64,000 bases of DNA from Microbacterium rhizosphaerae (GTDB lineage: Bacteria > Actinomycetota > Actinomycetes > Actinomycetales > Microbacteriaceae), in contig NZ_CP139368.1 in NCBI RefSeq assembly GCF_034120055.1, forward strand, positions 2,418,001-2,482,000, in the 5' to 3' direction. Shown here piece after piece: positions 3,146 to 42,816 of this stretch. The position numbers and the translations under genes are program-made. Position 1 is the stretch's first letter. The number at the start of each line of letters is the position of its first letter. The notes under the pieces are model-generated. The model did not search any database and had not been told where the DNA came from. It was given only the letters and a program-made list of their open reading frames with translations.

Positions 3146-4449
3146 CAGTAGCCGCTGGGCGCCGTCTCGAACTCGTTCTCCTCGGGCGCCGTCTCGTGGT
3201 GGAGCGGCCGGAGCGCTCGGGTCTGCTCGACCCAGATGAGCGCGTCGTACCGCCGACCCATGACCGTCGGTACGTAGTTCCCCTCTTCGCGAGCAGGGTC
3301 GTAGACCACGCCGATCGCCCGATGTCCCGCGCGCGCCGAGAGCCACGGCGCCTCGCCGGCGCCCGTCCCACCGCCGAAGTCGAGCACGGCGGCCCCGTCG
3401 AATGCATGGTGCAGCACGTCCTCGTGACTGCCGGGGCGGGCGGCGGGGACGGGCATCCGCTCTTCGACGGCTCCCCATTCCTGCGCGGCCGTGACCTCCC
3501 CGGCATACGACGCCATCCCGACGAGCAGCACGTGGTCGGCGCCATACCTCTCACGCAGCAGCTGCCCGACGTTGAGCAGTCCGGCATGGCGCATGGATGT
3601 CGCGCGCGCATCTCCGACGTGCGTGTTGTGCGCCCAGATGGCGGCCTTGGCGCGCGGGCCCAGATGCTCCGTGAGCCGGTCGGCAGTGTCGACCATATGG
3701 ATGTCGCGGATGTTCCATGACCCCCGGTCGGTGCGCACCATCGCCCGGTAGTACTGCTCGGCATCCGCCGCGACGATGGCGTTCTGGAGCGCGTCGAACG
3801 CGTCGTCGCCGTCCGCGGCCGCGCGCCGGCGCACCTCGACGAGGAGGTCGACGACATCGTCCTCGCACGAGAGCGGGACGAGCCGTGTCTCCCACGCGTA
3901 GCGCTGCGGGTCCTCGTCGAACGGCGCGAAGCAGCGCCATGCCTTCATGGCGACCGGCAGTGCGTCCGGCTGGCGCTCGGCCAGCCAGGAGATCGTCCGC
4001 GCCAGCGAGTCCCACAGGGAGTACACGTCGAGCCCATAGAATCCGACCCGCTCGCTCTCGGGTCGACCGAGGTTGTGCGCGCGCAGCCAGTCGAGGAAGT
4101 CCGCGACCTCGGCGTTCGCCCACATCCACGTCGGCCACCGGCTGAATCCCGCGAGAACCTCGCGCGCGTCCATCGCCGGGCCGGCGAGACCGCGGACCCA
4201 GCGGTCGATCCGCCAGCAGTCGGGCCAGTCGCCCTCCACCCCGATCCACGTGACGCCGGCTTCCTCGATCAGCCGCCGGGTCAGCAGCGCTCGCAGCGTG
4301 TAGAACTCGTGCGTGCCGTGCGACGCCTCGCCGATCGCGATGATCCTCCGGGATCGCGCACGCTCGACGATCGCGTCGAACGATCCGGCCCCGGTCAACG
4401 GCACCGCCAGCCGGCGGACGTCCGAGAGGATGTCCGACGTGCCGCTCAT
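3145..4449 (-). CDS. erythromycin esterase-like protein
   Basis: 434 aa, the usual size for the erythromycin esterase (EreA/ChaN-like fold) family. Visible motifs are IIAIGEASHGTHEFYTL (about residues 36-52), VTWIGVEGDWPDCWRIDRWV and KAAIWAHNTHVGDARA, which hold the conserved Glu/His residues of the family. In M. tuberculosis the DosR-regulated protein Rv2030c carries a phosphoribosyltransferase domain fused to such a domain. Here the two are separate genes joined by a 4-nt ATGA overlap, which supports a joint function. A role in macrolide resistance should not be assumed; natural substrate is unknown. Confidence 0.85.
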   Translation of the reverse strand: MSGTSDILSDVRRLAVPLTGAGSFDAIVERARSRRIIAIGEASHGTHEFYTLRALLTRRLIEEAGVTWIGVEGDWPDCWRIDRWVRGLAGPAMDAREVLAGFSRWPTWMWANAEVADFLDWLRAHNLGRPESERVGFYGLDVYSLWDSLARTISWLAERQPDALPVAMKAWRCFAPFDEDPQRYAWETRLVPLSCEDDVVDLLVEVRRRAAADGDDAFDALQNAIVAADAEQYYRAMVRTDRGSWNIRDIHMVDTADRLTEHLGPRAKAAIWAHNTHVGDARATSMRHAGLLNVGQLLRERYGADHVLLVGMASYAGEVTAAQEWGAVEERMPVPAARPGSHEDVLHHAFDGAAVLDFGGGTGAGEAPWLSARAGHRAIGVVYDPAREEGNYVPTVMGRRYDALIWVEQTRALRPLHHETAPEENEFETAPSGY

Positions 4450-5081
4450 GATCCCACCCGTGCGGCGTCGAGGTGTGCGGCGACCTCGGCATCGGTCGTC
4501 GGGTCGAAGTTCCGGTAGTACTCACCGACGGCACGGAAGTCCGCGGGCGGCCTCAGGCAGATCACCCGGTCGGCTCCCTCGACCTGATGCATCGCGTCGC
4601 GTGCGCCGACAGGGGCGGCGACGATCACCCGGGCCGCGCCGAAGCGCCGGGCGACCGCGCACGCCGCCGAGGCGGTGGCGCCGGTCGCTATGCCGTCGTC
4701 GACGATCAGCGCGGTCTTGCCGCTCAGGTCCAGACGCGGTCGAGATCCGCGCAGACTCGCCACACGGGCCTCCAGCGTCTGGCGCTCGCGGCGCTCCACG
4801 GCCTCGAGCTGGGCCGTGGTGACACCCAGCCGGCGGATGAGGTCGGCATCCACGATCCGGACGCCGTCCTCCCCGATCGCCCCCATCGCGACCTCGGGAT
4901 GGTAGGGCAGGCCGAGTTTGCGCACCACGATCACGTCGAGCGGCAGCCCGAGACACGAGGCCACCTCGGCCGCGACGGGGACGCCCCCGCGCGGCAGCCC
5001 GAGCACGACCGACGCTCTGATCCCCTCGTCGACCAGGTAGCGCCCGAGCCGCTGCCCGGCGTCTTTGCGATCCGAGAACAT
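4446..5081 (-). CDS. phosphoribosyltransferase domain protein
   Basis: 211 aa. The PRPP-binding signature is clear: ALIVDDGIATGATASAA, with two acidic residues before the GIATGAT loop. LGLPRGGVPVAAEVA and VVRKLGLPYHPEVAMGAI fit the Rv0571c/Rv2030c type of dormancy-regulon phosphoribosyltransferase. The start at 5081 is chosen for GGGGGAGGAG upstream rather than the longer frame. Its stop overlaps the esterase start. The gene lies 40 nt after the DUF805 gene and shares its box-driven promoter. The base or nucleotide it acts on is unknown. Confidence 0.85.
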   Translation of the reverse strand: MFSDRKDAGQRLGRYLVDEGIRASVVLGLPRGGVPVAAEVASCLGLPLDVIVVRKLGLPYHPEVAMGAIGEDGVRIVDADLIRRLGVTTAQLEAVERRERQTLEARVASLRGSRPRLDLSGKTALIVDDGIATGATASAACAVARRFGAARVIVAAPVGARDAMHQVEGADRVICLRPPADFRAVGEYYRNFDPTTDAEVAAHLDAARVGS

Positions 5082-5120
5082 CTGATGCTCCTCCCCCTCC
5101 TGCGCCTGCAGAGCCTGCAC

Positions 5121-5504: not shown

Positions 5505-5546
5505 ATCCTCGCGCCGCCACGCCGACGGGATCGGGCCTAAGGTCCC
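5505..5546 (-). promoter_or_regulatory. DosR-like box plus -10, leaderless promoter of the DUF805 operon
   Basis: Box GGGCCTAAGGTCCC (5533-5546), 22 bp, GAGGAT (5505-5510), then 6 bp to the A of the ATG at 5498. Identical geometry is seen upstream of acsA, the MBL nuclease gene and ppsA. Confidence 0.75.
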
Positions 5547-5603: not shown

Positions 5604-5714
5604 GGGGAGGCGCCCTCCGCCGAGAGCGCCTCCCCTGACTGCGACGGCCTGGGCAGTGCATCGACGCAGCTGATCGATCACTCCGTCCGAATCGGCCGTC
5701 CGGGGGCTGCCCGT
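5604..5714 (-). ncRNA. candidate small RNA A, box-driven, about 111 nt
   Basis: Minus-strand segment with its own DosR-like box and TACCGT -10. Predicted 5-prime end ACGGGCAGCCCCCGG at 5714. A central hairpin has ATCGAC (5660-5665) against ATCGAT (5673-5678) around GCAGCTG. The 3-prime end is a 9-bp stem GGGGAGGCG/CGCCTCCCC (5604-5612 / 5627-5635). No reading frame with a ribosome site is visible. The same 5-prime start, central hairpin and terminal stem recur in candidate B at 22084-22194. It lies between the DUF805 gene and the BON gene and does not overlap either. Transcription is inferred from sequence only. Confidence 0.6.
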
Positions 5715-5720
5715 GGCACA

Positions 5721-5762
5721 ACGGTAACTCGCGCCCGCCTGCCCCCTCGGGACATAGGTCCC
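5721..5762 (-). promoter_or_regulatory. DosR-like box plus -10 for candidate small RNA A
   Basis: Box GGGACATAGGTCCC (5749-5762), 22 bp, TACCGT (5721-5726) on the minus strand. Predicted start at 5714. There is no protein start within reach downstream; the nearest minus gene starts at 5498 and has its own box. Confidence 0.65.
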
Positions 5763-14031: not shown

Positions 14032-14495
14032 CAGGTGACCGGCCAGTGGATGAGCGTTCGCCAGTGCGACGGATCGGGCTCGACGCGAGGGTCGCTCAGA
14101 TAGCTCTCCCACATCGCGCCACCCGGAACCAGGCTGTGCGCCTCGATGAAGTCCTCGATGTCGTCATACGAGTCCGACATCGTCTCGTACGGCCCGATGT
14201 GGGTGGCTTCGACGGCGCGACCGCCGGGAAGGATGCCGGGTGCGACCTCGCCCGAGGCCGCGATCACCCGATCGACCGGGAAGCCGGCCTCGACATCGAC
14301 GACGTCGGTCGGCATGCCGTAGTACTTGGCGAACGGGGGGCCGACGGGATGCGCACCCTGCGCGGAGACAGCCCGCATCGTGGCCGAGAAGGCCGTGGAG
14401 AAGAAGTCGCGCAAGTCGTCCATCGGCACGGTCCGGCGGACACCCGCCGTGTGCACCTCCTCGACCTGCTCGGTGATGTGGATGTCGTTCGCCAT
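14031..14495 (-). CDS. GyrI-like / AraC effector-binding domain protein
   Basis: 154 aa. Reads as a single GyrI-like small-molecule binding domain: ATMRAVSAQGAHPVGPPFAKYYGMP, then DVEAGFPVD, AVEATHIGPYETMSDSYDDIEDFIEAHSL and SYLSDPRVEPDPSHWRTLIHWPV. Stand-alone members bind hydrophobic cations or act as inhibitors; no DNA-binding part is present. AAAGGAAG precedes the ATG at 14495. It is translationally coupled to the P-type ATPase (TGATG), which suggests a ligand sensor or accessory factor for the pump; that link is an inference. Confidence 0.8.
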   Translation of the reverse strand: MANDIHITEQVEEVHTAGVRRTVPMDDLRDFFSTAFSATMRAVSAQGAHPVGPPFAKYYGMPTDVVDVEAGFPVDRVIAASGEVAPGILPGGRAVEATHIGPYETMSDSYDDIEDFIEAHSLVPGGAMWESYLSDPRVEPDPSHWRTLIHWPVT

Positions 14496-22083: not shown

Positions 22084-22194
22084 GGGGAGGCGGCCCCCAG
22101 CGCACGCCTCCCCTTTGCTGCCGCAACCTCGGCTCCGATTGATGCAGCCCATCAATTCCTGCCGTCTTCGCCGGTCGCCGCGGGAGCTACCCGT
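22084..22194 (-). ncRNA. candidate small RNA B, box-driven, about 111 nt
   Basis: Minus-strand segment with 5-prime end ACGGGTAGCTCCCG at about 22194, a central hairpin ATTGAT/ATCAAT (22138-22143 / 22151-22156) around a GCTGC-containing loop, and a 9-bp terminal stem GGGGAGGCG/CGCCTCCCC (22084-22092 / 22105-22113). The same elements occur in candidate A in the same order and at about the same total length. On the plus strand the terminal stem is followed by TTT and may also end the ubiB operon. A 21-codon ATG frame inside has no ribosome site. No protein gene uses this promoter. Confidence 0.6.
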
Positions 22195-22201
22195 GCGACA
22201 C

Positions 22202-22244
22202 AGGTTAGAGCCCGGACGGATGGCACGGTCGGGACCAAAGTCCC
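22202..22244 (-). promoter_or_regulatory. DosR-like box plus -10 for candidate small RNA B
   Basis: Box GGGACCAAAGTCCC (22231-22244), 23 bp, TAACCT (22202-22207) on the minus strand, a perfect TANNNT. In the plus direction, toward the kinase gene, no matching hexamer exists at 21-24 bp. Confidence 0.65.
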
Positions 22245-22388: not shown

Positions 22389-24062
22389 ATGGAACATGAA
22401 TCTCTGCGGTTCCCCGATGTTCCGCGCGCAGAGCTCGAGAGCACGATCAACGACCTGATCTCACAGGCGCAGCGTGTCCTCACGGCGCAAGGGCGTCTTC
22501 GTGCCCTGCTGCAGGCCTACCGCGCGGTGATCGAGGAGCTCGATCTCGATCGCGTGCTGTCGCGCATCGTCGAGGCCGGCGCCACCCTCGTCGGCGCGGG
22601 TTACGCCGCCCTGGGCGTCATCGACAGCCGAGGCCAGCTGGAGCGCTTCATCCATGTCGGAATCCCGCCGGAGCAGGTCGATCTGATCGGCCACCTCCCC
22701 CAGGGCCGGGGACTGCTGGGCGCCGTCATCGACGCGGGTGCGACCATCCGCTTGGAGCGTCTCGGCGACGACCCGCGGTCGGTCGGGTTCCCCGAGCACC
22801 ATCCGCCGATGGACGGGTTCCTCGGCGTCCCGGTGCGAGTGCGTGACCAGATCTTCGGGAATCTCTACCTCACCGAACCTCAGGCGGGCGCGTTCACGGA
22901 GGAGGACCAGGAGCTCATCGAGTCGCTGGCGGTCGCCGCTGGGATCGCCATCGAGAACGCCAGGCTGTACGACGAGGCTCGCCGCCAGGAGCGGCTGAGC
23001 ACGGCCCTGTCGGAGGTGCGGGCAGCGCTCCTCTCTCCCGACACCGTGGACGTCTTCGGCGTCGTGGCCGAACGCGTCGCATCCGTCGTCCCGGTCGAGC
23101 TGGTCATGATCGTGGTGCCGATGGACTCCGACCATGAGATGCGCGTGGATGCCGCGCGCGGGCCGGATGCCGAACGCCTCGCCCGCATCGTGCTTCCGGC
23201 CGACTCGACGCCGGGTCGCGCGATGAGTTCGGGCGGTCTCATCACCGACGAGGCCTGGGCGATCCCGGATCGCGGCATCGAGCTCGGTCCCACGGCCGCC
23301 GTGCCCTTGATGACGGCCGGGCGGCCCATCGGCGCCCTGTGCGTCTCGCGGAGCCCGGGTGGCGGTGCGTTCACGCATCCCGAGCTGTCGGCGATCTCGG
23401 AATTCGCCGCGCAGGCCGGCATCGCCGTCACCCTGGCGTGGGCACGCCAGGACCGCGAGCGCCTCGAAGTCGTCGAGGAGCGCAGCCGCATCGCCCGCGA
23501 CCTCCACGACCACGTCATCCAGAGGCTGTTCGCGACCGGGCTGGGCCTGCAGGCGCTCGCCTCATCCGATCCGGCCCATGCCGTCGAGCTCGACGAGCGT
23601 GTCGGAGAGATCGATGCCGCCATCACCGACATCCGCACGGCCATCTTCGCGCTGCGGGGCAGGGGCACCGCGACCGTTCTGGCCCGGCACCGCCTCCTCG
23701 ATGTCGTCAGTGAGCTCGCCCCGGCGCTGATCTCCACCCCCCGCATCACCTTCACCGGCCCGGTCGATCTGATCCTCCGAGAGTCGCTCGCCGACGACGT
23801 GGTCGCCGTCGTGCGCGAGTCCCTCGCCAACGTCGCTCGCCACGCGAACGCCGAGACCTCGGAGGTGATCGTCCTCGTCACCGACTCCGAGGTCGCGGTG
23901 AGCATCGAGGACGACGGAGACGGCGTGGATCCCGATGCCATTGGAAAGGGCGGCACCGGCAACCTCGCCCAGCGGGCCGCGGGCCGCGGCGGCACTTACA
24001 CACTGGAGCGCCGCGCCGTGCGGGGAACCCGCGCGCAGTGGAGAGTACCGATCCCGGGGTGA
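22389..24062 (+). CDS. devS: DosS/DevS-like GAF-GAF sensor histidine kinase
   Basis: 557 aa. Two GAF domains (about 55-195 and 215-360): VLSRIVEAGATLVGAGYAALGVID begins the first, and EFAAQAGIAVTLAWARQDRERLE ends the second. A HisKA_3 box follows, ERSRIARDLHDHVIQRLFATGL, with phospho-His at residue 373, then an HATPase domain with VVRESLANVARHANA and IEDDGDGVDPDAIG. This order matches mycobacterial DosS/DosT, which sense oxygen, NO and CO through heme in the first GAF; the heme ligand cannot be confirmed by eye. ATG 22389 follows GAGG. No NarL/FixJ-type regulator gene is next to it, which is unusual. Confidence 0.88.
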   Translation: MEHESLRFPDVPRAELESTINDLISQAQRVLTAQGRLRALLQAYRAVIEELDLDRVLSRIVEAGATLVGAGYAALGVIDSRGQLERFIHVGIPPEQVDLIGHLPQGRGLLGAVIDAGATIRLERLGDDPRSVGFPEHHPPMDGFLGVPVRVRDQIFGNLYLTEPQAGAFTEEDQELIESLAVAAGIAIENARLYDEARRQERLSTALSEVRAALLSPDTVDVFGVVAERVASVVPVELVMIVVPMDSDHEMRVDAARGPDAERLARIVLPADSTPGRAMSSGGLITDEAWAIPDRGIELGPTAAVPLMTAGRPIGALCVSRSPGGGAFTHPELSAISEFAAQAGIAVTLAWARQDRERLEVVEERSRIARDLHDHVIQRLFATGLGLQALASSDPAHAVELDERVGEIDAAITDIRTAIFALRGRGTATVLARHRLLDVVSELAPALISTPRITFTGPVDLILRESLADDVVAVVRESLANVARHANAETSEVIVLVTDSEVAVSIEDDGDGVDPDAIGKGGTGNLAQRAAGRGGTYTLERRAVRGTRAQWRVPIPG

Positions 24063-24083
24063 CCGCGGGGCGCCGCATCCGGG

Positions 24084-24125
24084 GTGACCAAAGTCCCCCG
24101 CCGCGACGACGCGGTCGACGATCAT
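24084..24125 (+). promoter_or_regulatory. DosR-like box plus -10, leaderless promoter of the MBL nuclease gene
   Basis: Box GTGACCAAAGTCCC (24084-24097), 22 bp, GATCAT (24120-24125), 6 bp, ATG at 24132. Same geometry as the DUF805, acsA and ppsA promoters. The box begins 22 nt after the kinase stop. Confidence 0.75.
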
Positions 24126-24131
24126 GGCGGA

Positions 24132-25502
24132 ATGTCCGCGACTCTCACGTTCCTCGGCGCCACCGACACCGTCACCGGCTCGCGCTACCTGATCGAGGCC
24201 GACGGTACGCGGCTGCTCGTCGACTGCGGTCTCTTCCAGGGCTACAAGCTGCTCCGCGAGCGCAACCGGCGGCCGTTTCCCGTCGAACCGGCGAGCATCG
24301 ACGCCGTCGTGGTCACGCACGCGCATCTCGACCACACGGGCTACCTCCCGGCCCTGGTCCGAGACGGCTTCCGCGGCCGCATCCACAGTACGCACGGCAC
24401 AGCGGAGCTGAGCACCCTGGTGCTGCCCGACGCGGGCCGGCTGCAGGAGGAGGAGGCGTCGCACCACCGGCGGCACGGCACATCCCGGCACGATGCGCCC
24501 CAGCCGCTCTACACCGAGGAGGACGCGCACCTCGCGCTCGAGCACTTCGCACCGCACCCGTTCGACGAGGACGTCTCGATCGGCGGGATCCGCGTGCGCT
24601 TCGTGCCGGCGGGCCATATCCTCGGGGCGGCCCAGCTGCAGATCACCGCGGATGCGCGGCGCGTGCACTTCACGGGAGACCTCGGTCGCGTGGACGATCC
24701 GCTGATGCGTCCGCCGCGGCCCCTGGAGACGACGGATGTGCTCGTCTCGGAGTCCACGTACGGCGACCGCCGTCATCCCGGGGAGGACCCCACGGCGGCG
24801 CTGGGACGGATCGTCCGTGACGTCACCGGACGCGGCGGCGTCGTCATCCTGCCCGCGTTCGCCATCGGCCGCGCGGAGACGCTCCTGCTGCACCTCAGCC
24901 GGCTGGGCGAATCGGGCGCCATCCCCGAGGTCCCGATCTTCCTCAACAGCCCGATGGCCGTCGACGGCAGCGAGATCTACGCGCGTCATCCGGAGGAGCA
25001 CCGCCTCCCGCCCGACCAGTTCCGCGCGATGTACCGGCTCGCGACTCTCGTGCGCACGGTCGATGAATCCAAGCTGCTGAACCTTCGCGGCGGCCCCGCC
25101 GTCATCATCTCGGCGAGCGGGATGCTCGAGGGCGGTCGCGTGCTCCACCACATCGCCGCGTACGGCTCGGACCCCGCGAACGCCATCGTGCTGACCGGCT
25201 TCCAGGCGGGCGGCACGCGCGGCCGCGCTCTGGAGCAGGGCGAGCGTACGCTGCGCATCTACGGGCGCGACGTCCCGATCAGAGCCCAGGTCCACGTGCT
25301 CGAGATGCTCTCGGCGCATGCGGACGCCGGGCAGATCGTCGACTGGATGCGCACGGCTCCCCAGCCGCCGCACGCGGTCTACCTCACCCACGGCGAGCCA
25401 CCGGCATCCGACGCGCTCCGCATCCGCATCCGCCGCGAGCTCGGCTGGACCGCGCGCGTGCCCGAGCTGGCTCAGACCGTCGACCTCTCAGCGAGCCTGT
25501 GA
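24132..25502 (+). CDS. MBL-fold beta-CASP nuclease (CPSF73/RNA-specificity type)
   Basis: 456 aa. Metallo-beta-lactamase core with HAHLDHTG (residues 63-70) and two later histidines in FVPAGHILGAAQ and VHFTGDLGR. The beta-CASP insert contains VVILPAFAIGRAETLLLHL and VIISASGMLEGGRVLHHI, and the C-terminal RNA-metabolising part has EMLSAHADAGQIVDWM and HGEPPASDALRIRI. These are the landmarks of CPSF73-like RNA nucleases. The start at 24132 is fixed by leaderless geometry; the longer frame to 24084 begins inside the box. With the baeRF-like genes and small RNAs it points to RNA and translation control in the regulon. The last 15 nt overlap the convergent mgtA. Confidence 0.88.
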   Translation: MSATLTFLGATDTVTGSRYLIEADGTRLLVDCGLFQGYKLLRERNRRPFPVEPASIDAVVVTHAHLDHTGYLPALVRDGFRGRIHSTHGTAELSTLVLPDAGRLQEEEASHHRRHGTSRHDAPQPLYTEEDAHLALEHFAPHPFDEDVSIGGIRVRFVPAGHILGAAQLQITADARRVHFTGDLGRVDDPLMRPPRPLETTDVLVSESTYGDRRHPGEDPTAALGRIVRDVTGRGGVVILPAFAIGRAETLLLHLSRLGESGAIPEVPIFLNSPMAVDGSEIYARHPEEHRLPPDQFRAMYRLATLVRTVDESKLLNLRGGPAVIISASGMLEGGRVLHHIAAYGSDPANAIVLTGFQAGGTRGRALEQGERTLRIYGRDVPIRAQVHVLEMLSAHADAGQIVDWMRTAPQPPHAVYLTHGEPPASDALRIRIRRELGWTARVPELAQTVDLSASL

Positions 25503-40552: not shown

Positions 40553-40890
40553 TCGACCCCCGGCCGCGCGTCCTCGGCGCGGTCGTCGACGACCAGACCC
40601 GGTGCATCCACTACGGCACGCCGCTCGACATCATCGCCATTCGATTCGCGTGCTGCCGCGAGTTCTACCCCTGCCACCTCTGCCACGCCGAGACCGCCGG
40701 ACACCCCGCAGAACAATGGCCCATCGCAGACCGGGAGGAGCACGCCCTCCTCTGCGGGGTGTGCGGACACCTGCTCACCATCGCCGAGTACCTCGAAGCC
40801 GACCGCTGCCCGGCGTGCCGCTCGGCCTTCAACCCCGGGTGCAAGCTCCACACCCACCTGTACTTCCGGGTGGATGCGATCAAGCCGTGA
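40549..40890 (+). CDS. CHY zinc-finger protein
   Basis: 113 aa. Cys/His-rich: RCIHYGTPLDIIAIRFACCREFYPCHLCHAE, LLCGVCGHLLTI and DRCPACRSAFNPGCKLHTHLYF (parts). This is the CHY-type zinc finger of small proteins related to yeast Hot13. GTG 40549 overlaps the bioN stop, so it belongs to the biotin operon. Its last 11 nt overlap the convergent alcohol dehydrogenase. Role in biotin metabolism is unknown. Confidence 0.85.
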   Translation: MIDPRPRVLGAVVDDQTRCIHYGTPLDIIAIRFACCREFYPCHLCHAETAGHPAEQWPIADREEHALLCGVCGHLLTIAEYLEADRCPACRSAFNPGCKLHTHLYFRVDAIKP

Positions 40891-41935
40891 GGATGACCTT
40901 CAGCGCCTTCGTCTCGGCCGCTCGGCCGAACGTGTCGTAGGCGCTCAGGATGTCATCGAGGGCGAAGCGATGGCTGATGAACCCCGCCACGTCGATCTTT
41001 CCCTGGGCGAGCAGTTTGATCAGCATGCGCGACGTGTCTGTGTTGACGAGCCCGGTGGTGATCGTGAGGTTCTGTATCCAGGCCTTCTCGAGCGGGAACG
41101 TCACGGGCTTGCCGTGCACGCCCACGTTGGCGACATGGCCGCCGGGCCTCACGATGGCCAGCGTCATGTCCCAGGTGGCCGGCACGCCGACCGCTTCGAT
41201 GGCGACATCCACGCCGAGACCGTCCGTCAGGGCGATCACCTGCTCTTTCCAGTCCGCGTCCGACGAGACGATGCCGTCGCTCGCGCCGAAGCGCTTCGCC
41301 TGCTCCACGCGGTTGGCATCCAGGTCGATCGCGATGACACGGCTCGGTCCATAGAGGGCGGCTGTGGTCATCGCCGCAAGACCGACCGGACCCGCGCCGA
41401 TGACCGCGACGACATCGCCCGGCTTGACGGCGCCGTAGCGGATGCCGATCTCATGCCCCGTGGGCAGGATGTCGCTGATCATCGCCGCTTCCTCGGGCAC
41501 AACGCCCTCCGGCAGCTTGTGGAGCGACGTCTCGGCGAAGGGGACCCGCACGTATTCGGCCTGCGTGCCGTCGATCAGATGCCCGAGGATCCAGCCGATC
41601 CCCGATGCTCCTTCGTCGGCCAGACAATGGGAGTACATGCCCTCGAGACAGTAGCTGCACTTGCCGCAGGCCGAGATGCACGAGACGATCACGCGATCTC
41701 CCACGGCGATCTCGGTCACCGCCTCACCGACCTCGGTGACGACGCCGACTCCTTCGTGACCGAGGATGCGACCGGGTTGCACCGCGGGCACGTCCCCCTT
41801 GAGGATGTGCAGGTCCGTCCCGCAGATCGTCGTCGTCGCGATCTTGACGATCGCGTCTGTCGGCTTCAGAATCCGGGGATCCGGCACCTCCTGCCAGACG
41901 ATCGAATTCGGTCCCTGATACACCAACGCTCTCAT
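40880..41935 (-). CDS. zinc-dependent alcohol dehydrogenase
   Basis: 351 aa, medium-chain family. Catalytic zinc ligands in TTICGTDLHIL (Cys) and GRILGHEGVGVV (His-Glu). The structural zinc loop has four cysteines in CGKCSYCLEGMYSHC. Rossmann motif VVAVIGAGPVGLAAMT, then VIAIDLDANRVEQAKRFGAS, indicating NAD preference (Asp at the strand end). Shape resembles formaldehyde/threonine-type dehydrogenases; substrate not set. AGGAGAG precedes the ATG at 41935. A DosR-like box sits upstream. Confidence 0.9.
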   Translation of the reverse strand: MRALVYQGPNSIVWQEVPDPRILKPTDAIVKIATTTICGTDLHILKGDVPAVQPGRILGHEGVGVVTEVGEAVTEIAVGDRVIVSCISACGKCSYCLEGMYSHCLADEGASGIGWILGHLIDGTQAEYVRVPFAETSLHKLPEGVVPEEAAMISDILPTGHEIGIRYGAVKPGDVVAVIGAGPVGLAAMTTAALYGPSRVIAIDLDANRVEQAKRFGASDGIVSSDADWKEQVIALTDGLGVDVAIEAVGVPATWDMTLAIVRPGGHVANVGVHGKPVTFPLEKAWIQNLTITTGLVNTDTSRMLIKLLAQGKIDVAGFISHRFALDDILSAYDTFGRAAETKALKVILTA

Positions 41936-41973
41936 GATCTCTCCTCGGCATTTCGCGGTGTGCGCTGATACCC

Positions 41974-42014
41974 ATCGTGCGGCGCGCGGAAGGCGGGGCC
42001 GGGACCTTCGTCCC
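41974..42014 (-). promoter_or_regulatory. DosR-like box plus -10 for the alcohol dehydrogenase
   Basis: Box GGGACCTTCGTCCC (42001-42014), 21 bp, CACGAT (41974-41979) on the minus strand. The same hexamer is used by the universal stress gene promoter. Confidence 0.65.
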
Positions 42015-42054
42015 ACCGTCTGGTGCGGGGATCCTCCTGCCCGCCCTGCCGTGG

Positions 42055-42816
42055 TCAGGAACGCGGGGGGTTGGCGGGAAGCCACTCCGCCAGCGTGGTG
42101 GGGAAGATCTCCGCACCGTCCAGGGGAATGAGAGTGCGCTCCTCGATGTGTGCGCCGTAGTACTGCGCGTCCGGATCCTGCACGACCGTCCGGGGATCGC
42201 CACGGAACGCGAGGCCTCGCCGGACGAACTCGTCCATGGGGAACTGCTCGGGTCCGGCGATCTCGAGATCGCCGTTGATCGGCCGCCCGGCTGCCGTGCG
42301 AGCCACGGCGGTGGCGACATCCTCCGCGGCGATCGGCTGGATGAGGGCTCCGGGCAGATGCACGGTGCCGTCGGCCACCACCGAGATGTCGGCGATGCTG
42401 CCCAGGAACTCGAAGAACTGGGTGGCGTGGACGAGCGAGTACGGCATCCCGGACTCCGTGATGAGCTTCTCCTGCGCGGTCTTGGCCCGGAAGTAGGGGA
42501 TGTTCTGGGGGCGGTTGGTGCCGACGATGGTCAGCGCCACGTGGTGACCGACACCGGCGGCCGCCTCCGCGGCGAGCAGGTTGCGAGTGGAGGTGGTGAA
42601 GAACTCCAGCACGGCGTTCTCTTCGAAGGACGGCGAGTTCGAGACGTCGACGACGACCTGCGCTCCCGTCATCGCATCTGCGAGTCCCTCACCCGTCAGG
42701 GTGTCGACGCCGGTGCTGGGCGCCGCCGCGACGGCTTCGTGACCGTGCTCGGACAGCTTCGCGACCACTTTGGATCCGATGAGCCCGGTTCCGCCGACGA
42801 CGATGATCTTCGCCAT
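42055..42816 (-). CDS. NmrA-like / SDR NAD(P)-binding protein
   Basis: 253 aa. Atypical short-chain dehydrogenase opening with IIVVGGTGLIGSKVVAKL (G-x-x-G-x-x-G). Lacks the YxxxK catalytic pair in the usual place; FRAKTAQEKLITESGMPYSLVHATQFFEF is the NmrA/SDR_a5-type segment. Such proteins reduce quinones or sense NADP. AAAGG precedes the ATG. Confidence 0.85.
   Translation of the reverse strand: MAKIIVVGGTGLIGSKVVAKLSEHGHEAVAAAPSTGVDTLTGEGLADAMTGAQVVVDVSNSPSFEENAVLEFFTTSTRNLLAAEAAAGVGHHVALTIVGTNRPQNIPYFRAKTAQEKLITESGMPYSLVHATQFFEFLGSIADISVVADGTVHLPGALIQPIAAEDVATAVARTAAGRPINGDLEIAGPEQFPMDEFVRRGLAFRGDPRTVVQDPDAQYYGAHIEERTLIPLDGAEIFPTTLAEWLPANPPRS

Follow-up and report, generated by a model that had tools for sequence, protein, structure and literature searches.

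The window is the whole stretch of DNA that was analyzed, 64,000 nucleotides of the single-contig, 4.06-Mb genome of Microbacterium rhizosphaerae (C1:2418001-2482000). Its minus strand carries two putative small RNA genes, designated A and B. The features of the two loci and of the genes discussed with them are as follows.

22084..22194, minus strand: small RNA gene B, 111 nt, supported by covariance models R1-R3 and by covariation; both ends inferred
22231..22244, minus strand: DosR/DevR-type palindromic box of B, GGGACTTTGGTCCC, matching 10/10 fixed positions
22202..22207, minus strand: -10-like element of B, TAACCT, 23 bp after the box and 7 bp before the proposed start
22181..22193, minus strand: helix P1 of B, the 5' stem-loop CGGG-UAGCU-CCCG, seen in 6 distinct sequences
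22123..22178, minus strand: helix P2 of B, GCGACC (22178-22173) with GGUUGC (22128-22123), supported by covariation
22131..22163, minus strand: lower P3 of B, GG (22163-22162) with CC (22132-22131), supported by covariation
22138..22156, minus strand: helix P3 of B, AUUGAU (22156-22151) with AUCAAU (22143-22138), apical loop GGGCUGC
22084..22113, minus strand: terminal stem of B, GGGGAGGCG ... CGCCUCCCC
22389..24059, plus strand: DevS-like sensor kinase gene (Pfam: GAF, GAF, HisKA_3, HATPase_c)
24063-25499, plus strand: MBL/beta-CASP/RMMBL nuclease-like gene, after the kinase gene
5604..5714, minus strand: paralogous small RNA gene A, 111 nt; both ends proposed
5749..5762, minus strand: DosR-type box of A, GGGACCTATGTCCC, matching 10/10 fixed positions
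5721..5726, minus strand: -10-like element of A, TACCGT, 22 bp after the box
5533..5546, minus strand: separate box GGGACCTTAGGCCC, 9/10, between A and the downstream DUF805 gene
14034-14495, minus strand: GyrI-like protein gene with boxes, each at least 8/10, at -126 and -74 of its start

The perfect box of B reads GGGACCAAAGTCCC at 22231-22244, and 36 bp separate it from the proposed start, A22194, where the minus-strand segment opens with ACGGGTAGCTCCCG. The corresponding distance in A is 34 bp. A sequence-only reading of this DNA had placed a perfect box at 22231, a TANNNT 23 bp from it and a 111-nt minus-strand segment beyond; all three hold (10/10 at 22231-22244, TAACCT, and 22194-22084). 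It had also assigned A and B a shared promoter. Both genes do have the box and the -10-like element, but the spacer of A is 22 bp rather than 23 bp. In the direction of the kinase gene, whose start is ~145 bp off, inspection by eye of the equivalent position on that side of the box of B showed no TANNNT.

That A and B have a start in common, as had been claimed, is borne out by ACGGGYAGCYCCCG, which has two perfect matches in the window, one in A (5701-5714) and one in B (22181-22194). With up to two mismatches the motif occurs 6 times in the window against 5.3 expected, so that it is special only as an exact match. The claims of a shared end stem and equal length stand as well, since A and B each measure 111 nt from the start A to the end of GGGGAGGCG...CGCCTCCCC. 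The stem had been read as the end of the RNA; it is common to A and B, but the RNA strand has no U-tract, and the end given here is a proposed one. On the plus strand, TTTGCTG comes after the stem of B, which begins 38 bp past the stop codon of the convergent, plus-strand ABC1-kinase gene. The stem may serve this convergent gene on the plus strand, and it may work for both strands.

Local alignment of A with B gives a score of 35, and scores of 30 or less were obtained in 1,128 comparisons of A with the other 111-base pieces of the window on both strands. On its own this score is no more than suggestive of kinship; the changes at paired positions between these two sequences alone lack significance (71/500 shuffles were equally high). 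It is the independent homologues in other genomes, described below, that settle the kinship. Core identity is 66% between A and B, 65-70% between A and the other copies, and 53-66% between B and the other copies, values that argue against a recent duplication. These two were the only copies found in the source genome (search at E up to 10, with 150 of 539 first-look candidates scored).

The boxes conform to the consensus GGGACNNNNGTCCC, of which 10 fixed positions were scored and which we take to be of the DosR type. This assignment fits the passage of PMC5069765 in which the 16-base palindrome of OsdR, AGGGCCGATCGGCCCT, is described as close to the mycobacterial box. Bases 1-32000 of the window contain 16 boxes that match at least 9/10 positions, compared with a mean of 3.8 and a maximum of 7 in 30 dinucleotide shuffles, and 3 perfect boxes, compared with a mean of 0.3 in 30 shuffles. 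Bases 32001-64000 contain 2 boxes at 9/10 or better. When boxes with up to two mismatches are counted, the window as a whole is not enriched (70 versus 87.9 expected). The first half of the window is thus a dense cluster of DosR-type boxes, an island of the dormancy type. One perfect box, GGGACCTTCGTCCC at 42001-42014, falls outside this cluster and inside a minus-strand stop-to-stop frame (40883-42688).

In addition to the DevS-like kinase, the region encodes a beta-CASP nuclease-like protein, two P-type ATPases, a PPDK-domain protein, Hsp20, a GyrI-like protein and a BON-domain protein. A gene for a DevR/DosR-like regulator (L199:1471-2106) ends ~2.6 kb before the start of the window; its best PDB match is DevR (3c3w, E 1.3e-64), 75 bits above the next, and its neighbor was read by eye as universal stress protein-like. 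With the DosR/DevR regulon of M. tuberculosis and the OsdR regulon of Streptomyces (PMC5069765), the region shares the kind of GC-rich palindromic box, a DevS-like kinase, a DevR-like regulator, Hsp20 and a universal-stress-like protein (the last by eye). The main text of PMC5069765 contains no occurrence of "small rna".

Homologues of A and B were sought with three successive covariance models. The first, R1, had A and B as its sole input; over 29 genus kinase loci it matched L092 and L098, from genomes G109 and G315, at 49.4 bits, with the next match at 15.6 bits. The copies of G109 and G315 are identical in their core. Addition of L092 to the rows of R1 gave R2, which among 366 genus genomes yielded new matches in G373 (74.3 bits), G168 (63.9 bits) and G075 (50.5 bits). 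R3 was made from all seven rows, which represent six distinct sequences, and places the RNA in at least 6 of 366 genus genomes, the source genome included, and in at least 1 of 299 genomes of a family sample, namely the source genome. These counts are lower bounds because the large genome searches scored 12-23 first-look candidates per genome and because R1, applied to 198 genus genomes, returned the source-genome copies only, although G109, inferred to be in that sample, carries one. The kinase is found in 107 of 366 genus genomes and the RNA in 6 of 366, which indicates that the regulon does not as a rule include the RNA. The sequence-only reading had proposed this kind of covariance search and had staked the family on conserved copies in related genomes and on a transcript; such copies are present in G109, G315, G373, G168 and G075, five further genus genomes.

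Full cmsearch runs covered the window, all 80 named loci and 29 genus loci with R1; 93 loci, the 80 named ones among them, with R2; and 88 sources, among which were 47 of the named 80, plus 24 more and 56 of 59 further loci with R3, where L209, L227 and L232 were left aside as repeats of earlier ground. This set of loci omits ~10 kinase places, mostly on small contigs. Beyond the reported members, none of the fully searched loci reached 27 bits. The best non-member, L123 (26.7 bits, E 0.35), has no P3 and no box in the nearby letters and was dropped by eye. A weak match to R3 (24.3 bits, E 0.86), outside the member count, is present at L159:10962-11250 in genome G278, where a box AGGACGAAAGTCAC (8/10) is followed after 22 bp by TACGTT and then by ACGGGTCGCGCCCG. 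It precedes a gene that by eye resembles that for a universal stress protein, and no second box was noticed there; it could be a diverged relative that has turned into a leader.

Members were also recovered by pattern. In the window and 120 loci, a box of at least 8/10 followed after 22-24 bp by TANNNT occurs at 79 places, 8 of which continue with a GGG/CCC hairpin: five members, L159, and L021 and L040, which look unrelated. A looser pattern found 3 places in L163-L193, all of them family members, and the promoter-plus-hairpin pattern had no match in the 59 further loci; these patterns were modelled on A and B. The further copies behind DosR-like boxes that the sequence-only reading had suggested looking for exist in other genomes; in the source genome only two copies were found. 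No match to B was found in 72,556 plasmid records, and a scan of viral contigs for the kinase gave three distant loci that were of no use. In a DNA search of 58 genomes, the source included, the sole outside match to B (29 aligned bases in G007) was judged by eye to be chance coding similarity and set aside. Against Rfam release 15, the window gave tRNA only at gathering scores, with no likeness of the RNA to any family above its cut-off; at E up to 5, the six member-bearing loci yielded a pair of weak matches, each at a distance of over 1 kb from the RNA.

Comparison of the promoter and INDEPENDENCE across members reveals that a box followed 22-23 bp later by a -10 element is kept in A, B and four other lineages, which are listed here.

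G109: box GAGACTTTCGTCCC, spacer 22 bp, -10 element TATCGT
G168: box GGGACCTTGGTCCC, spacer 23 bp, -10 element TAGGTT
G373: box GGGCCCTTGGTCCC, spacer 23 bp, -10 element TAACCT
G075: box GGGCCGTTAGCCCC (8/10), spacer 22 bp, -10 element TGACCT; box and -10 both degraded

The boxes of A, B, G109, G168 and G373 match 9-10 of the 10 fixed positions, and they stand upstream of proposed start sites.

The seven-row alignment points to a common fold. Overall, 98.1% of its cells pair, and both sides are changed in 9 of 18 pairs (16 cells) among the six distinct sequences. P1 is paired in 100% of cells across the 6 distinct sequences, with one pair that varies on one side only. Both sides are changed in 3 of 6 pairs of P2 (97.2% of cells paired), 2 of 2 pairs of lower P3 (100%) and 4 of 6 pairs of P3 (97.2%). 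In 500 shuffles neither the percentage of paired cells nor the covariation score was ever reached; the count of doubly changed pairs was equaled in 6 of them, and that of further pair types in 84. When the structure was slid along the alignment, only 20-53% of cells paired. Because the alignment was fitted to the model, it favors the structure, and it comprises only six distinct sequences; RNAalifold, with its own prediction on this alignment, recovers these helices, with 11 doubly changed pairs in a total of 22. The alignment has 7 G-U cells versus 1 A-C cell, which favors the proposed minus strand.

Folding of single sequences is weak support for an RNA. With short flanks, A has a z of -2.4 and B one of -1.2; P1 is missing from both minimum-energy folds, and P3 from that of B. 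Trimmed sequences are predicted to form P1, P2 and P3 in A (114 nt), and P1 and P3 without P2 in B (111 nt).

Unpaired residues are conserved in the apical loop of P3 (RGCUGY) and in a GCAGY linker after P2. The 9-nt internal loop between P2 and P3 is GAUUCGGAC in A, G373 and G075, GUUUCGGAC in G109 and GGUUCGGAC in G168, and has diverged in B. A long GC-rich terminal stem is found in 5 of 6 distinct sequences; the 3' stem of G075 is another sequence. Columns 1 and 16 form G-C in 4 of 7 rows and A-U in one, and are an unpaired A-G in both window copies; nucleotide 1 is thus paired in the G109/G315, G373, G075 and G168 rows and unpaired in A and B. A kissing interaction between the 5' loop and the P3 loop, considered from A and B, was rejected on the G109 loop, UCGCA, which does not fit.

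The anatomy of the RNA resembles in outline that of DrrS (MTS1338/ncRv11733), a DosR-dependent RNA of M. tuberculosis that we compared by its description only. As described in the pertinent sections of PMC5360333, DrrS has one DosR site 34 bp upstream of its main start, measures 108-109 nt, and begins with a GC-rich stem-loop from nucleotide 1. The same sections describe a long terminal stem that lacks a U-tract, a 3' end made by processing, and a half-life of more than 6 hours that is due in part to the 5' stem-loop. Several of these features appear to be matched by the Microbacterium RNA, with 34 bp in A and 36 bp in B between box and proposed start (34 bp in DrrS as PMC5360333 counts), a length of 111 nt, a GC-rich 5' stem-loop and a 3' stem without a U-tract. 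It differs in that two copies are present in one genome.

We consider it probable, at roughly three chances in four, that A and B belong to a single noncoding RNA family, which is driven by DosR and acts in trans. Comparison among genomes establishes, at the level of sequence, a conserved fold preceded by a DosR-type box and, 22-23 bp past the box, a predicted -10 element, along with the likely strand and the presence of a putative DosR-like regulator and kinase. Conserved copies, covariation and a common promoter layout also uphold the earlier proposal of a family of small RNA genes driven by DosR boxes. In the model we favor, low oxygen or a related signal would cause the DevS-like kinase and the DosR/DevR-like regulator to activate the promoter, with the regulator bound adjacent to -35. 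Protected by its 5' hairpin and 3' stem, the ~111-nt RNA would build up in low oxygen, as DrrS does, and act in trans, most likely on mRNAs with which its conserved, exposed loops would pair. This pairing is the least certain step, and we rate it an even bet; a crude duplex test for a target in the linked GyrI-like mRNA gave no signal (z -0.2 and -0.7, source genome only).

The RNA could instead bind a protein, which it would sequester or guide, and the beta-CASP nuclease-like protein is one candidate. The conserved letters lie mostly in helices and loops and not in a long unpaired seed, and the beta-CASP/RMMBL gene, besides following the kinase gene in the window, adjoins the RNA in G109 (L129) and G168 (L142). 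We nevertheless find protein binding doubtful, as 15 of the 17 loci (among 40) in which the gene was matched lack the RNA, and the G373 and G075 loci gave no match to it.

Somewhat less likely still is that the element is a 5' leader, attenuating or stabilizing, of downstream DosR-regulated genes. Three copies do stand upstream of genes on the same strand (DUF805 behind A, beta-CASP behind the G168 copy and hsp20 behind the G373 copy), and the weak possible relative in G278 precedes a universal stress protein-like gene, judged by eye, with no further box seen. These three neighbors vary by genome, however, and each carries its own box after the RNA (9/10 behind A, 10/10 in G168 and 10/10 in G373), so that the RNA looks like a separate gene, and we reject a leader for all members. 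Behind B, G109 and G075, the next gene recognized is convergent; in the other genomes this survey covered ORFs of 150 aa or longer and may have missed a short gene on the same strand. Past the DUF805 gene downstream of A, within 3148-5120 on the minus strand, lie a gene of the erythromycin esterase family (Pfam, E 2.6e-114) and a phosphoribosyltransferase-domain gene (4446-5117).

It is very improbable that the segments encode a small DosR-induced peptide. B has an ATG with AGGA 4 nt upstream and a frame of 23 codons, and G373 and G075 have an ATG, their common start codon, at the same place and initially in the same frame. Across members, though, the starts, the frames relative to GCTG and the lengths vary; the G168 frame in the register of B stops after 9 codons, and the G109 GTG aligned with the G373 start stops after two. 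Moreover, sequence changes follow base pairing. No reading frame is common to all members, and we reject a peptide on this ground.

Scarcely credible is the notion that the stem of B is only a terminator of the ABC1-kinase gene and that A and B resemble each other by chance in GC-rich DNA: the plus-strand TTTGCTG, the 38-bp distance to the stop codon, the modest A:B similarity by simple alignment and the non-significant pair changes agree with it, but independent homologues with the same fold, promoter and (except in G075) kind of stem, together with covariation, rule out chance similarity.

In the literature we searched, mycobacterial DrrS was the one DosR-dependent small RNA found to be well described. 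Among the matches listed for DosR/DevR, small RNAs, Microbacterium/Microbacteriaceae and Actinobacteria, the present RNA family is not described; a search for Microbacterium with DosR and small RNA found none, one for covariance-modelled small RNAs of Microbacterium or actinobacteria found ANTAR RNAs only, and among the matches listed around small RNA and Microbacteriaceae none names Microbacteriaceae. The Microbacterium RNAs would be a second, covariation-backed family, similar to DrrS in type of promoter and in outer architecture. If this is true, the need of dormancy regulons for a stable RNA, and the role of that RNA, become testable outside a pathogen. It is a speculative and rather unlikely extension that dormancy regulons throughout Actinobacteria have a stable, structured RNA of ~110 nt under direct DosR control as an output, either ancient or evolved more than once; DrrS and the Microbacterium family, doubled here, would then be two branches of one kind or true homologues.

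The distribution of the GyrI-like gene offers a lead only. At E up to 1e-30, this gene occurs in 12 of 335 genus genomes, five of which bear the RNA (the source, G075, G109, G168 and G373; G315 is not among the 12), a count that ignores relatedness. The loci around the gene in the seven genomes without a detected RNA contained no copy. The G075 copy (L161:9862-10020) is situated ~2 Mb from the kinase and is perhaps a member that has left the regulon.
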